The position numbers and the translations under genes are program-made. Positions 2,841-39,463 of a stretch of DNA of 64,000 nt are shown piece by piece. The notes beneath the pieces were generated by a model, which was not told the DNA's origin, made no database searches, and saw nothing but the letters and a program-made list of their open reading frames with translations. The stretch spans positions 933,347 to 997,346 of the forward strand of contig NC_005071.1 in assembly GCF_000011485.1 (NCBI RefSeq), given 5' to 3'. The stretch is from Prochlorococcus marinus str. MIT 9313 (GTDB lineage: Bacteria; Cyanobacteriota; Cyanobacteriia; PCC-6307; Cyanobiaceae). Position 1 is the stretch's first letter; every line of letters begins with the position of its first letter.

Positions 2841-3077
2841 TTAGGACTCTGACTTTTTTACTGAGGGCTCTAAGCTTGCCAAATCTGCTGTTGCTTCAGC
2901 TATATTGTTGCTGAATTTACAAGTTCCCAGATAACAACCTAGAAAACGCTCTCCTTGCTTGGCAGGAAATTTATGGATAGTGCCACCTTGGGCAGTGGAA
3001 TGAACAAGAATAGCTTGAAGAGCCATAATAGGATGTAAACACTTGCCTATCATCACGCAATACACCAGCTTTGCCAT
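2841..3077 (-). CDS. hypothetical protein, 78 aa
   Basis: Small cysteine-containing protein with no family I recognise. Cys residues occur near the N-terminus and in the motif GCYLGTC. The C-terminal third is helical and acidic and ends in a serine/lysine tail. No clear membrane segment or signal peptide. It stands alone between two spacers of more than 300 bases. The composition is protein-like, but a chance frame cannot be excluded. Confidence 0.35.
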   Translation of the reverse strand: MAKLVYCVMIGKCLHPIMALQAILVHSTAQGGTIHKFPAKQGERFLGCYLGTCKFSNNIAEATADLASLEPSVKKSES

Positions 3078-3417
3078 AGGTGGATGTACTGCCTTGAGAG
3101 AGAGGATTCAATGTGCCAAACAAATTAATAAATTCTAACGGATTAAGCTTCTAAAAATAATTCTCGTTTAAAAAAGAATCTGGACAAAACTTGCTGCTAG
3201 ACATAAATCAATGAGCATGAGGGTGTATTGGATTCATCCCAAAAATTCTCGTAAGATTAATCAATACAATCAAACAGAATAGAACTCTCATCATTAGTTA
3301 AAGGTAAATCTATAACTCGATAGCCACACAGTTAAATAGTCTGAATTCAAGAAAGGCGCTAATAGAAAGTTCTTGTGATCATTGAACTTAGGGAATGTAA
3401 AGTAACGCTAGAGGTTA
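3078..3417. other. spacer, nothing recognised
   Basis: AT-rich 340-base spacer with no open frame worth reporting and no strong hairpin or T-run. It would hold the promoter of the small gene to its left and the 3' flank of the hydrolase to its right. Confidence 0.4.
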
Positions 3418-30108: not shown

Positions 30109-31145
30109 CTCATCAAAATGCTTACATGAGATCAGATCAATTTTATCTTAAAATAAAATCGGATGCAAATAAATAATATCGATTGGCATAACAACAATAC
30201 AGCAACTGATCTTCTTCTTTAAACGAGATAGGGCTTTGCAGGAACAGTTAGGGAAGAGTTTTGATGGCTAAAGGAGAATTACATCTAAGCCATCTTTTGC
30301 CTTAACCTAGGACCTCCTAGGACAGCAACAAAGGGTATTGCCAAGCAATCACTAAACATACTTAGCAAGGCAATAACCACTCTTATCAAAGTCAAGCGAG
30401 AACGACAGCGTTTCATTTTTCCAAAAACAAAACAACAACTGTCTTGGGATTGAGATGTATGGCCTTTGCAATGTGGTTGAGAAGTTCTAAAGACATTCTC
30501 GTTTCACCAACTGCAGAAGGACACTGCCGCTTTGATTGCGAATAAGATTTTCTCCACCAGAGGGCTGGGCAGATCACCTAAGACGATGGCAATTATGATG
30601 CTTGATGCTTCCTGTGTTATGCCTATTTCTAGCCACGCCAAGCACGATGAAGATGATGATGACTGTCTAGTAGGTGAGCTGAATGAAATTCTCCATTTAA
30701 CCCTCCGATCATTTAATTCATTCACGCTCAGTTGCTCAAGCAGCTTACAGGCAGAGCATTCGCGTTCACGGAGTTAGCAAGTTGATTGTCTGATTTTTAC
30801 ACGGGCGAACGCAGCTCACCGGATTGGACTTTTTAAAAAACGCGCTTTGAAACCACTTGCGAACCTTCTCCCCTTAGATGCGAACCCTGAACACAAACGT
30901 GGCATCTGCTGTGAGTTGTTCAGTGAGATCAGCTTCAGGAGCAGGCTTGAGCCAAGGCGGGACATCTATGACAGTCCATGTCTTAAACCTAGATAGAGCC
31001 TCGTGACTTGTGAGACAGGGCACCGGCATCTTCACCAGCAATGCCATAGACCCCTTCTTTTTCTTGACCTACGCTTCTTCCTCCTATCACCATGAGATGT
31101 GATCAGGCAAAATTGAATTAGATGAGATCAAATGGAGGTTTAGGC
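30109..31145. other. 1-kb region without a convincing gene
   Basis: Opens the small-gene islet. Open frames at 30504-30725 (minus) and 30532-30777 (plus) overlap antisense and neither has a recognisable feature; the plus frame has an acidic DEDDDD patch. A direct repeat CCTAGGAC/CTCCTAGGAC lies near 30307-30322. The last 12 bases contain the GGAGG that serves the first gene of the nuclease cassette. Confidence 0.4.
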
Positions 31146-31277
31146 GTGACTGTTCACGAAAGAGATGTTGATGATGATTCCTATGACGAAGTTGATGAGT
31201 ACCTCATCAGCCAAGAATCTGATGAGGGAGAACGTGCTTACTTTCCAGTTGAAGGCTCAAAACCGCCTCACTACTGA
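31146..31277 (+). CDS. acidic micro-protein, 43 aa, first gene of nuclease cassette
   Basis: Starts with GTG at 31146 preceded by a perfect GGAGG (31134-31138) at seven-base spacing, which is why I believe it is translated. The product is strongly acidic (RDVDDDSYDEVDEYL and QESDEGERAYF) and ends in SKPPHY. It overlaps the next gene by about 55 bases in another frame. No family recognised. Its charge could let it bind a basic partner, but that is speculation. Confidence 0.5.
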   Translation: MTVHERDVDDDSYDEVDEYLISQESDEGERAYFPVEGSKPPHY

Positions 31278-31488
31278 GATCTTTGTCTTGGAAAAGATCA
31301 ATAAGAACTTGAGATCTCAATTGCCTTCAGTAACCTTTGATCGATGGCAGGTGACAACTAAAGAGGTTTGTGCCAAGGCATATGCACCCTATAAGCAAGG
31401 CAGTATTTACTTGCAGATGATCATTCGCTGCGATGACAGCCTCAACCTTGCCCTACGCCAGGCACTAAAAGGACTGGAAGAGAACTGA
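31222..31488 (+). CDS. hypothetical protein, 88 aa, nuclease cassette
   Basis: Soluble protein with mixed alpha/beta character (LTFQLKAQNRLTTEIFVLEKINKNL, then WQVTTKEVCAKAYAPYKQGSIYLQMIIRCDD). Two Cys are present. The ATG at 31222 and the GTG at 31234 are both possible starts; the frame opens at 31165, inside the previous gene. Its stop overlaps the start of the next gene as TGATG, so translation is coupled. No family recognised. Confidence 0.55.
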   Translation: MRENVLTFQLKAQNRLTTEIFVLEKINKNLRSQLPSVTFDRWQVTTKEVCAKAYAPYKQGSIYLQMIIRCDDSLNLALRQALKGLEEN

Positions 31489-31658
31489 TGGAGCGCTTGC
31501 ACTGGAGTTATCTAGAAGTTGGTTTGCTGGTTCTTTTCTACTGGGGTTTGATGATTTGGTGGATCAGGGGATCTAAGCGAAAGCAAGACCTTGCCAAACC
31601 GTTGACGGAGAAGGAGTTCGCTAAGTGCTTGGATCGGATATGGGCAAGGCACTTCTAG
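31488..31658 (+). CDS. micro membrane protein, 56 aa, nuclease cassette
   Basis: One membrane helix (YLEVGLLVLFYWGLMIWWI) followed by a basic stretch and a helical tail with PLTEKEFAKCLDRIWAR. The tail pattern T-x-E-[KD]-F-x3-L-[DE]-R-IW recurs in the micro-protein at 32321-32494, so the two are probably related. It starts on the ATG that overlaps the previous stop, and its 3' end overlaps the nuclease start by 19 bases. Unknown function; perhaps an anchor or immunity-like partner. Confidence 0.6.
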   Translation: MERLHWSYLEVGLLVLFYWGLMIWWIRGSKRKQDLAKPLTEKEFAKCLDRIWARHF

Positions 31659-32260
31659 TTCTGCTTCTTACTCTTTGGGCAGTGCCTTCCAATGCAGCAG
31701 AAGTGCTTGCGATCGGTGATGGCGACACTCTCACCGCCAAAGAAGGCAGTCAAACAATCAAGGTGCGCCTTGCCTGCATTGATGCTCCAGAGACTTCCCA
31801 ATCGCCCTATGGCAAAGCAGCACGACAAGCACTGAAGGGTCTATTGCCAGTCGGATCTGATGTGTCCCTTCGCTCCAAGCCAACTGACCGCTATGGAAGA
31901 ACCGTGGCAGAGGTCATTCGCAATGGCACCAACATCAATCAGTCATTAGTGAAGTCGGGCAATGCCTTTGTCTATTGGAAGTACATCAAAGGGTGTGATC
32001 GTCAGACCTACGCCCACCTAGAGACCTATGCCCGACTGGGAGGTATTGGGGTCTGGTCTGTTCCTGCTGGGATCCAGCGACCTTGGGATTACAGGCAAAG
32101 CAAGCAGAGCGACAGCAAGGGAAAGCGTTATCGCTGCAAAGACATGAGTTCATGGAATGCAGCGCAAGAACTGCTCAGACAAAGACACTCCTGCCTGGAT
32201 TGGGATAAGGACGGGGAAGCATGTGAGTCAATCAGGTGTGCAGGGCAGATTGCAACTTGA
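31640..32260 (+). CDS. secreted staphylococcal-type nuclease with excalibur domain
   Basis: Thermonuclease-family (SNase) enzyme with a signal peptide (MGKALLVLLLTLWAVPSNAA) when started at ATG 31640. The SNase fold has IGDGDTLTAKEG, the catalytic region VRLACIDAPETSQSPYGKAARQAL, and SKPTDRYGRTVAEVI. These match the Ca-binding Asp/Glu and the two catalytic Arg. The C-terminal 40 residues form an excalibur Ca-binding motif (YRCKDMSSWNAAQELL, then DWDKDGEACESI). It probably degrades extracellular or periplasmic DNA for nutrients or defence. It sits inside a tightly overlapping run of four other small genes. Confidence 0.88.
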   Translation: MGKALLVLLLTLWAVPSNAAEVLAIGDGDTLTAKEGSQTIKVRLACIDAPETSQSPYGKAARQALKGLLPVGSDVSLRSKPTDRYGRTVAEVIRNGTNINQSLVKSGNAFVYWKYIKGCDRQTYAHLETYARLGGIGVWSVPAGIQRPWDYRQSKQSDSKGKRYRCKDMSSWNAAQELLRQRHSCLDWDKDGEACESIRCAGQIAT

Positions 32261-32320
32261 TGAAGGTTTCGTGACGACAGAAGCCTGATCGAGCATTGTC
32301 TGATCGGAGGTGCTTGGGCG

Positions 32321-32494
32321 ATGCAACATCCCATTTGGGCAACCCTTGCGTGGGCAGTTGCTGCTTTCGCTGTTGGCATGAAATTAAGAAGACTCTCCCA
32401 TCTACTCTTCCAGAAGACACTGAATAGATCATTCACAACAGAAGACTTCAGAGCATCGCTAGAGCGTATCTGGGAGAAGGAAATAGTGCGATGA
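32321..32494 (+). CDS. micro membrane protein, 57 aa, paralogue-like
   Basis: N-terminal hydrophobic helix (PIWATLAWAVAAFAVGMKL) and a basic, helical tail with SFTTEDFRASLERIWEKE. The tail matches the motif in the 56-aa protein before the nuclease. ATG 32321 has a GGAGG at 32306-32310, ten bases upstream. It lies 60 bases after the nuclease stop on the same strand, so the nuclease is bracketed by two related micro-proteins. Confidence 0.6.
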   Translation: MQHPIWATLAWAVAAFAVGMKLRRLSHLLFQKTLNRSFTTEDFRASLERIWEKEIVR

Positions 32495-32549
32495 AACTGT
32501 CATTCGAGCATGCTTAAATGATTTCAATTAAAAAGTTATGAACCTATAG

Positions 32550-32735
32550 TTAATTACTACTGGCGTATCTAACTATGGAAACAACCGCAATGATGATTAC
32601 ACCATAGGTCCAGATTGCTCCACTTCTATTCGTTAGCCTCTCTAACCACACAGGAAATCCCGAAGCATCAATTATCAGTAGACAGGCTAGACCCAGGACA
32701 ACCATGGGAATGCCTAGCGCTAGCAATAAATCCAT
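32550..32735 (-). CDS. small membrane protein, 61 aa
   Basis: Two predicted membrane helices (LLALGIPMVVLGLACLLIIDA and GAIWTYGVIIIAVVSIVRYA) joined by a basic loop with PVWLERLTNRS. Hydrophobic, compact and protein-like, but no family recognised. Convergent with the nuclease cassette. Confidence 0.6.
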   Translation of the reverse strand: MDLLLALGIPMVVLGLACLLIIDASGFPVWLERLTNRSGAIWTYGVIIIAVVSIVRYASSN

Positions 32736-33097
32736 GCGTTTACCTCATTGACCCTAATCATATCCTTTATATCGTGAAAGCAAGTATTTTTGTCAAGACT
32801 AAGAAAAAGTCTGTAGTTTCTTTGGCCAACTTGGCTTTATGGATTGATATTACTTTTCCGCCAGCCTGGCATGAAACCCCTCTTTTAGGGGAAACAGCAA
32901 GATCAAAAAACCTCCTTCTTGGTGATGTTGCTGCAGGTTGGTTGCGCGATAGTGTGTTTGTCTGTGTCGAGAGCCTCACAATCAAAACCTCTAATATGAA
33001 TTTTAGTTCAATCGAAGTCAACTATCTAAAGGCTCCGCAGTTGCATTAGCATTCATTCATGTGGCGAAGGTGAAAACCTGAAGATCATCAACCAACA
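32736..33097. other. spacer with uncertain open frames
   Basis: A plus-strand frame (32615-33049) contains LLLGDVAAGWLRDSVF, distantly reminiscent of RES-domain proteins, and a minus frame overlaps it. Neither is convincing. A small hairpin CCCCT-loop-AGGGG lies near 32877-32893. Confidence 0.35.
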
Positions 33098-33766
33098 ATG
33101 AAACTCTTTTCTTAAATCTCTATTGCTGCCGTTCTCGGATCATTGCTCTTTACTGCTGCTGCTTCTAAAGCGAATCCACAAGTCGAACCTTCGATACACA
33201 CGCTTTGCATTGAAGCTAATGACTACGCTGGCTGCGTCAGAGTAATGAAAGGCGACACTATTAACACGGCCAGGTAGATTCGTTCACAAGGTGCAGATAT
33301 TGCAGAAGGTAATCAATGCCCATCAGGTTTTGCCTACGTTGGTGGAGGCAACTGCATGGAGGTTAAATGTGTCTACAACACAGCAACGGGTCTTGGCTTT
33401 GATACCGAACATGACCAACGAGTTGCAGGAAAAGCTGATTTGGGATGCAAGGGATCTTTTTGGCATGGAGCTGGAGTAATGCAACTTCAAGGCACCGCAA
33501 GAGCAAGCATCAATCCTGACTGACCTCCTGGCGAACCTCAAATCGGCTACAACAGCACTTTTCAAACACCTCCTGCTAGAGGGGAGAGCCCTTCAGAACA
33601 AGCTGCTCGAGAAAGTCGTGAAGAGCCAAAGTGCGATTTCAGGCTCCGTCAATACAAATGCAGCTATAACGATTACTTGGATGCCAACCCAGCCATGAAG
33701 AAATGGGCTGAACTGAACCCAGAAATGGCAAAGAAAGAAAGCTTTCGCCTGCAATCAGTTGATTAA
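33098..33766 (+). pseudogene. secreted-protein pseudogene with TAA, TAG and TGA in frame
   Basis: One frame of 222 codons with no indel reads as an exported Cys-rich protein: signal segment ISIAAVLGSLLFTAAASKA, then LCIEANDYAGCVRVMKG, GNQCPSGFAYVGGGNCMEV, LGFDTEHDQRVAGKADLG and a C-terminal CDFRLRQYKCSYNDYLD. It is broken by TAA at 33113-33115, TAG at 33275-33277 and TGA at 33521-33523, before the final TAA at 33764. The likely ancestral codons are TTA, CAG and TGC. Codon structure and the start ATG remain intact, so inactivation is recent or readthrough occurs. I regard decay as by far the simpler reading. Confidence 0.7.
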
Positions 33767-36540: not shown

Positions 36541-36837
36541 ATGTCAGAAGAACAACTCAAAGCCTTTCTCGAAAAAGTAAAAGCAGACACCAGCCTTCAG
36601 GAGAAGCTCAAAGCTGCAGCCGGTTCCGATGCAGTTCTTGCGATTGCGAAAGCGGCTGGGTTGATGATTTCTGCTGACGACTTGACGAAGGCTCAATCAG
36701 AGATTTCAGATGCAGAGCTGGAAGATGCGGCTGGGGGAGGGGCTCAGGGCCCTGCTTGTTGCGCAGCAATGGAATCTTCGGATACGAGATGCGGCTGGGT
36801 GAGTTGGGTATTGAGTGAGGTCGTACCACCGCAATAG
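36541..36837 (+). CDS. prochlorosin-type lanthipeptide precursor (ProcA)
   Basis: Ribosomal peptide precursor with a Nif11-like leader. The leader MSEEQLKAFLEKVKADTSLQ to ISDAELEDAAGGG matches the ProcA family of MIT9313-type Prochlorococcus and ends in the double-Gly cleavage motif near residues 65-67. The core of about 31 residues holds Cys at 73, 74 and 84 with Ser/Thr at 79, 80, 82, 88 and 92, enough for up to three (methyl)lanthionine rings made by a ProcM-type LanM synthetase and cleaved by a bifunctional ABC exporter. Neither enzyme is in the window, which fits the known habit of scattered precursor genes served by one ProcM. A strong terminator follows at 36911. Confidence 0.9.
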   Translation: MSEEQLKAFLEKVKADTSLQEKLKAAAGSDAVLAIAKAAGLMISADDLTKAQSEISDAELEDAAGGGAQGPACCAAMESSDTRCGWVSWVLSEVVPPQ

Positions 36838-39184: not shown

Positions 39185-39463
39185 ATGGAGACGCACACTG
39201 CTCTACTCACGTTGATCTCAATGGCGGTGTTGGTTGGCCTTGGTGTTGGCTATTTGGCAAAAACTGCGCTGTTCAAGAACGGTCCAATCGAGAGAGGTCC
39301 ACTCGGGCAAATGAAGGCAGGAGGGCTGTTTGACTTTGGAACTGGGACAAAGGTCAGCTCTAAACGAAACCCTCCCAATCAACCGAAGATCAGTCAGGAC
39401 GAGACAATCAAAGCGCGATTGGAGAAGACCTTTGCTGATAGCGCATCAGGAATGGACGACTGA
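39185..39463 (+). CDS. single-pass membrane protein, 92 aa
   Basis: N-terminal membrane helix (ALLTLISMAVLVGLGVGYLA) then a soluble tail with Gly/Pro-rich middle (GPLGQMKAGGLFDFGTGTKVSSKRNPPNQP) and a charged helix at the end. Protein-like and monocistronic. A strong hairpin precedes the start. No family recognised. Confidence 0.6.
   Translation: METHTALLTLISMAVLVGLGVGYLAKTALFKNGPIERGPLGQMKAGGLFDFGTGTKVSSKRNPPNQPKISQDETIKARLEKTFADSASGMDD

Follow-up and report, generated by a model that had tools for sequence, protein, structure and literature searches.

The five closely packed reading frames at 31146-32494 of the window (the entire 64-kb stretch of DNA that was analysed) are probably a composite, in which a putatively exported nuclease is combined with one dead gene and with two micro-protein modules that are independent of each other. 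Judged by comparison with other genomes, the frames belong to separate families that form two recurrent pairs elsewhere: an LprI-like gene followed by memA or memB, and acid43 followed by an exported SNase. By the same comparison, a segment carrying a truncated LprI-like gene, memB and SNase (dLprI-memB-SNase), which has a second copy in the same genome, sits here between acid43 and memA. A preliminary description of this DNA had proposed one dedicated five-gene system; this proposal is not supported, and the locus looks instead like two recurring modules patched together. The window lies in the single-contig genome (2,410,873 bp) of Prochlorococcus marinus str. MIT 9313 (G000). Below, acid43 designates the 43-aa acidic ORF, memB and memA the micro-membrane proteins of 56 and 57 aa, and SNase the nuclease. 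The features are the following.

31134..31138, plus strand: GGAGG ribosome-binding site of acid43, 7 nt before the GTG at 31146, with identical motif and spacing in MIT 0701 and G002:C36
31146..31277, plus strand: acid43, 43 aa, GTG start, C-terminus PPHY (family search and alignment)
31222..31488, plus strand: 88-aa ORF, the 3' part of an LprI-like gene, probably dead (comparison with the intact copy)
31299..32230, plus strand: segment duplicated elsewhere in the genome (blastn, 833 of 933 columns identical)
31488..31658, plus strand: memB, 56 aa, single-span membrane protein (one hydrophobic stretch; profile searches)
31640..32260, plus strand: SNase, predicted exported SNase-Excalibur nuclease, 206 aa from ATG 31640 (domain matches, signal-peptide-like N-terminus)
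32321..32494, plus strand: memA, 57 aa, single-span membrane protein, homologue of memB (profile search, profile-profile alignment)
31322..33635, plus strand: stretch comprising memB-SNase-memA and beyond, absent from the corresponding G002:C36 site

The five ORFs, the overlaps and the GGAGG described earlier are all present in the sequence: the 88-aa ORF and memB overlap as TGATG at 31486-31490, and memB and SNase overlap by 19 nt. Four of the five supposed genes have relatives in many genomes, but the fifth, the 88-aa ORF, is a remnant. All five frames occur together only in the window and in Prochlorococcus sp. MIT 0701 (G001; contig C14 is NZ_JNBA01000014.1), where they are decayed. Promoter and terminator scans of the locus remained at chance level, and Rfam gave no match. 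The family searches with acid43, memB, memA and SNase all covered the same 201 genomes of the family, and the genus sample comprised five genomes. Further along the window, 33112-33523 is a secreted-protein pseudogene with an internal stop, whose 'CIEANDYAGCVRV' motif resembles the 'CLNARDYEGCIRV' motif present in MIT 0701 C49, and the ORF at 36541-36834, with a leader-like N-terminus, a Gly-Gly and then a Cys-containing core, is by its look what we take to be a lantipeptide (prochlorosin) precursor.

SNase matches PF00565 (E 4e-19, 69.4 bits, above the curated cut-off of 21) and, at its C-terminus, Excalibur PF05901 (E 1e-6, 29.2 bits, above the cut-off of 22), and its N-terminus is signal-peptide-like, which confirms the signal-peptide nuclease with an excalibur motif of the preliminary description. 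An alternative start, GTG 31625, would give a protein of 211 aa. When aligned to the solved thermonuclease, SNase presents the active-site and calcium-site motifs DGDT, RL..D.PE and TD.YGR; the score against this nearest solved relative (a thermonuclease chain) is only about 40 bits. SNase would be exported by Sec and, with its calcium-binding Excalibur domain, may cleave nucleic acid (DNA or RNA) with the assistance of calcium, either in the periplasm or beyond the cell, in a role that could be scavenging or clearance. SNase-family matches were found in 145 of the 201 family genomes. PADLOC, the anti-phage defence library, recognized the SNase domain only (PDLC01096, 5e-10) and gave no match for the other four proteins submitted. 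A viral origin was rejected. A single-protein query of viral_contigs, which finds close relatives only, returned no relatives of the window SNase, and a short Prochlorococcus SNase had distant matches only, in five phage records. As a separate observation, a truncated trigger-factor-like ORF (L264, about 2933-3349, minus strand; 138 aa, Trigger_N E 1e-24) runs into the end of an exported SNase in two loci, L264 and L309, and is found close to SNase or acid43 in L269, L259 and L312; in the first two, a fragment of a ribosome-bound chaperone would be coupled to a nuclease for export.

Window 31299-32230 matches the minus strand of G000:C1 at about 339.7-340.7 kb (933 columns, 89%, blastn). The duplicated segment starts inside the LprI-like gene, just past acid43, and ends before the SNase stop codon. 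In this second copy (copy 2), memB is directly preceded by an intact LprI-like gene (340.5-340.8 kb, 107 aa, with a signal peptide), and a one-base shift at about residue 143 has cost SNase (339.7-340.4 kb) its Excalibur frame. Comparison of the two copies identifies the 88-aa ORF as a 5'-truncated remnant of an LprI-family gene and not an independent gene: it retains the intact gene from about residue 45 onward, has lost roughly half of helix 1 along with the signal peptide, Cys26 and Cys37, and keeps two of the four cysteines conserved in the family. The MIT 0701 equivalent contains stops and a frame change, and a 107-aa extension of the 88-aa frame had no Pfam match. On these comparisons the 88-aa ORF is probably dead. 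We infer that the dLprI-memB-SNase segment was copied into its present place.

We collected 30 LprI-like sequences, five of which were left out of the alignment (shortened, without a start, or with an unknown residue); all 25 members submitted match PF07007 (best 5e-7), copy 2 itself falling below the cut-off. A model of the LprI-like protein built from one sequence had a pLDDT of 45, and one built from the 25 rows has three helices and a pLDDT of 84. The model resembles the DUF1311 structure 3gi7 (VIA Z 8.8 and, across 77 residues, an rmsd of 2.5, a moderate similarity for helical proteins) and TsiV3 (4noo, VIA Z 9.8), values to be read with caution, as a Z under about 13 can be common in helical folds and the Foldseek E was 0.6 at best; a search of PDB sequences gave nothing useful. 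TsiV3, to which the model likens the intact LprI-like protein of L018:7492-7812 (minus strand), is a periplasmic protein that confers immunity to a type VI muramidase effector.

The locus has had different fates in the relatives. In G002:C36, acid43 is still in place with the opening bases of the LprI remnant, after which the sequence jumps from window position 31321 to 33636, a gap most simply explained, from the alignment, by deletion of memB-SNase-memA. At the orthologous place in MIT 0701 (C14), SNase is broken by stops and frame changes and memA and memB are open; at C49 of the same strain, an intact SNase stands behind a fossil of the last 16 residues of memB, with memB itself at C14. 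Since C14 and C49 differ in this way, at individual loci in relatives the nuclease has persisted without the micro-proteins, and they without it; a claim that they are dispensable is based on two relatives, both draft assemblies. At C6 of MIT 0701 SNase contains a stop, and at C26 it is shortened. A fossil of the memB tail apparently also precedes SNase at C26, and SNase is followed by memA at C26 and at G002:C8. These tail fossils and the recurrence of SNase-memA in the genus indicate that the linkage persisted for a while. On this sequence comparison the memB-SNase overlap is old in the genus, which counts against a composite.

The protein acid43 has a computed pI of 4.05 and matches in 55 of the 201 family genomes, mostly small Prochlorococcus-type genomes and often in several copies; in an alignment of 19 rows, 12 positions are invariant, the last four (PPHY) among them. 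Across the 28 genomes having both genes, 8 of the 37 acid43 places, in four genera, have a SNase no more than 300 bp downstream and in the same orientation (0.0049 expected), and SNase lies at most 1300 bp downstream at 12 places in seven genera, the window and MIT 0701 included (0.0212 expected); positions were taken from search listings, and the expected numbers assume random placement and independent genomes, several of which are closely related. SNase starts 10 or 17 nt past the end of the acid43 alignment in nine chosen loci and 64 nt past it in one more. Upstream, micro-membrane ORFs (tm48, tm55 or the 33-aa tm32) were found at 22 of 44 chosen acid43 sites, a set that includes loci fetched for a SNase adjacency already seen, so that the fractions 14/44 and 22/44 are biased; in the cases read, their stops overlap or nearly touch the next start. 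Matches to tm55 occur in 47 of the 201 genomes. Thus part of the earlier intuition of a nuclease with small partners survives, because acid43 directly precedes exported SNases beyond chance in other Prochlorococcus-type genomes, but with SNases of another clade and without extending to memA or memB.

The two clades appear in a tree built on 76 SNase rows, near-duplicates included. The enzymes of the window genus group with those of Synechococcus and Cyanobium (45 rows, branch support 100/100), and the acid43-linked enzymes of other Prochlorococcus-type genomes form the other clade (31 rows, 100/100), which also contains the acid43-linked rows under the ids L280, L286, L295, L300, L301 and L302. 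In the window, acid43 thus stands beside a SNase of a clade that is unusual for it. The sight of acid43 next to an exported SNase of a second clade, which would rarely come about by chance, speaks against a composite, and it argues for a different explanation: acid43 could be the true partner of exported SNases, an acidic cytoplasmic inhibitor or export chaperone that leaves the nuclease harmless until it reaches Sec. The micro-operon would then be tm48-tm55 (or tm32)-acid43-SNase, and the window would be a re-pairing with an Excalibur-type SNase. The adjacency, the spacing and the upstream ORFs all favor such a partnership. However, 27 of the 55 acid43 genomes have no SNase match (some are incomplete, the complete ones including G034, G111, G160 and G172), five of the eight adjacent cases come from one genus (g52), and acid43 can outlive the nuclease, as in L274, where a SNase remnant lies behind an intact acid43. 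The old memB-SNase joint, the recurring SNase-memA order and the presence of acid43 beside both clades keep this partnership in play, though we consider it unlikely. A bolder proposal, which we hold to be distinctly improbable, is that an undescribed micro-protein operon of Prochlorococcus (tm48, tm55 or tm32, and acid43 with its invariant tail) works for exported nucleases from several clades. In it, acid43 would be a cytoplasmic inhibitor or export escort, the micro-membrane proteins would hold it at the Sec exit, and the nuclease would often be lost and re-acquired behind this platform, the Excalibur-type SNase having come here with memB from an LprI module. In the composite that we prefer, acid43 would be a Prochlorococcus micro-protein in its own right, coupled as a rule to the other micro-membrane ORFs tm48, tm32 and tm55.

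No trusted match was obtained for acid43, memA or memB in Pfam, NCBIfam, PHROGs or PADLOC. Relatives of acid43 and of memB were absent from viral_contigs and from phage records, and PDB sequences offered nothing useful for acid43. A link of acid43 to photosystem II was rejected: the NCBIfam Psb35-related model was hit by 8 of 19 members (best E 0.003), and the window protein scored 16 bits against a cut-off of 80. Pfam matches to SlyX (9 of 19) and cytidylate kinase (3 of 19) are weak and were taken as chance in an acidic helix. In L262 and L265, acid43 follows a 107-125-aa membrane ORF ending 'DAEVISKE..', relatives of which precede acid43 in L315 and L326; the next ORF in L262 and L265 is one of 54 aa.

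Turning to the membrane proteins, the shared tail noted in the preliminary description is not a matter of chance, since in an HMM comparison (hhalign) the memA and memB subfamily profiles align over 57 columns with a probability of 98 and an E of 1.8e-13. At E 0.01, memB has matches in 60 and memA in 66 of the 201 family genomes; the joint profile finds 24 of 291 phylum genomes, the four outside the family being weak, partial matches, so that memA and memB form a family of picocyanobacteria. Of the 60 named memB loci, 16 have memA upstream (two of these cases being weak or spaced) and that of MIT 0701 has it downstream; 5 have an LprI-like gene on the same stretch, no more than about 3 kb away, and only 3 have SNase within 3 kb, namely MIT 0701 itself, an opposite-strand case about 2.3 kb off and a fragment. 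At 9 of the 38 LprI places, in five genera, memA or memB follows the LprI-like gene in the same orientation at a distance of up to 800 bp, compared with 0.0115 expected on the same assumptions of random placement and independence (29 genomes having both; positions again from search listings). On these neighbor counts, the association of memA and memB, whether mutual or with the LprI-like gene, is more frequent than their association with the nuclease. The SNase ATG lies inside the codons for the conserved I-W of memB (ATA TGG), and the 19-base overlap can consequently be explained without a functional link.

The idea that memA and memB anchor, regulate or immunise against the secreted nuclease, as parts of one dedicated system, draws on the tight overlaps and on the SNase-memA or memB-SNase linkage at several places in the genus. 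The scarcity of SNase near memB, the far wider occurrence of SNase than of memA and memB, and their separate loss in relatives make it very unlikely; a role as anchors or immunity partners is unsupported because so few memB loci adjoin a SNase and because of the opposite outcomes at MIT 0701 C14 and C49. The small frames, which had been expected to be conserved where the nuclease is, do not in the case of memA and memB follow it, nor do SNase and memA/memB show the constant co-occurrence, with the partner kept where the nuclease is intact, of an effector and its immunity protein. A type I toxin reading of memA and memB was set aside: the genes overlap others, and the charged tail is conserved.

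Some further observations concern proteins of similar build. A small one-span membrane ORF at window 39185-39460 is built like memA and memB, as are three ORFs of L022 (1106-1354, 1479-1700 and 4216-4581), two of which match the memB profile weakly (37-39 bits). In L131 and L141, two other family genomes, memA and memB are about 5-7 kb apart, with a block between them that presumably holds a frame for an S21-like ribosomal protein; there memB abuts a membrane ORF of 98-103 aa starting MKQLPG.

The memA gene has a dN/dS of 0.18 and 0.27 against two relatives and of 0.03 between MIT 0701 and G002, where the differences are almost all silent; at MIT 0701 C14, memB (0.32) and memA (0.18) are found alongside the broken nuclease. 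The view that the whole stretch is decaying neutral debris, left by gene duplication where the chromosome is poor in genes, would account for the truncated LprI gene, the frameshifted second SNase, the broken MIT 0701 SNase, the G002 deletion and the pseudogene at 33112-33523, but is hardly probable in view of these memA values, of a SNase dN/dS of 0.18 between the window and MIT 0701 C49, and of the invariant positions of acid43.

In the composite reading, memB and memA would each cross the inner membrane once and have a basic, cytoplasmic tail (as suggested by charge alone) that contains an amphipathic 'EF...LERIW' helix. Their function may be in the envelope and linked to the LprI-like protein, not to the nuclease. 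The translational coupling of memB and SNase would here be an accident of descent, the SNase ATG having been borrowed from the I-W codons.

What the locus contains is thus an ordinary exported nuclease surrounded by micro-protein families that are real and in part new. Nothing on this cassette came up in the open-access literature searched, including PMC2518516 and PMC5126843, a result that does not amount to absence from print. The families memA/memB and acid43 are without a library match, yet each is present in more than a quarter of the 201 genomes. The family to which these genomes belong contains the Earth's most abundant photosynthetic cells. Recurrent coupling of the micro-proteins to an exported LprI-like protein or nuclease leads to a testable claim about how picocyanobacteria handle secreted enzymes and extracellular DNA.

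Three known systems can be compared with these frames. NucA-NuiA of Anabaena reportedly pairs a secreted cyanobacterial nuclease with an acidic inhibitor. This precedent speaks in favor of an acid43 partnership and offers a possible analogy for an acidic cytoplasmic partner of an exported nuclease, with acid43 as a candidate only. The genes of SNase and acid43 are linked, as those of a nuclease and its inhibitor would be, but acid43 is also present in genomes with no SNase match, some of them incomplete, and NucA-NuiA differs in nuclease fold and in inhibitor size. The intact relatives of the 88-aa ORF match the LprI/DUF1311 family (PF07007, lysozyme inhibitor) in profile and fold, whereas the copy in the window departs from it in having no signal peptide and only half of the conserved cysteines. 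Finally, SNase shares with the staphylococcal nuclease family (PF00565, secreted thermonuclease, with PF05901) its domains, its signal-like N-terminus and its active-site motifs; it differs in being set in an overlapping array with micro-proteins.
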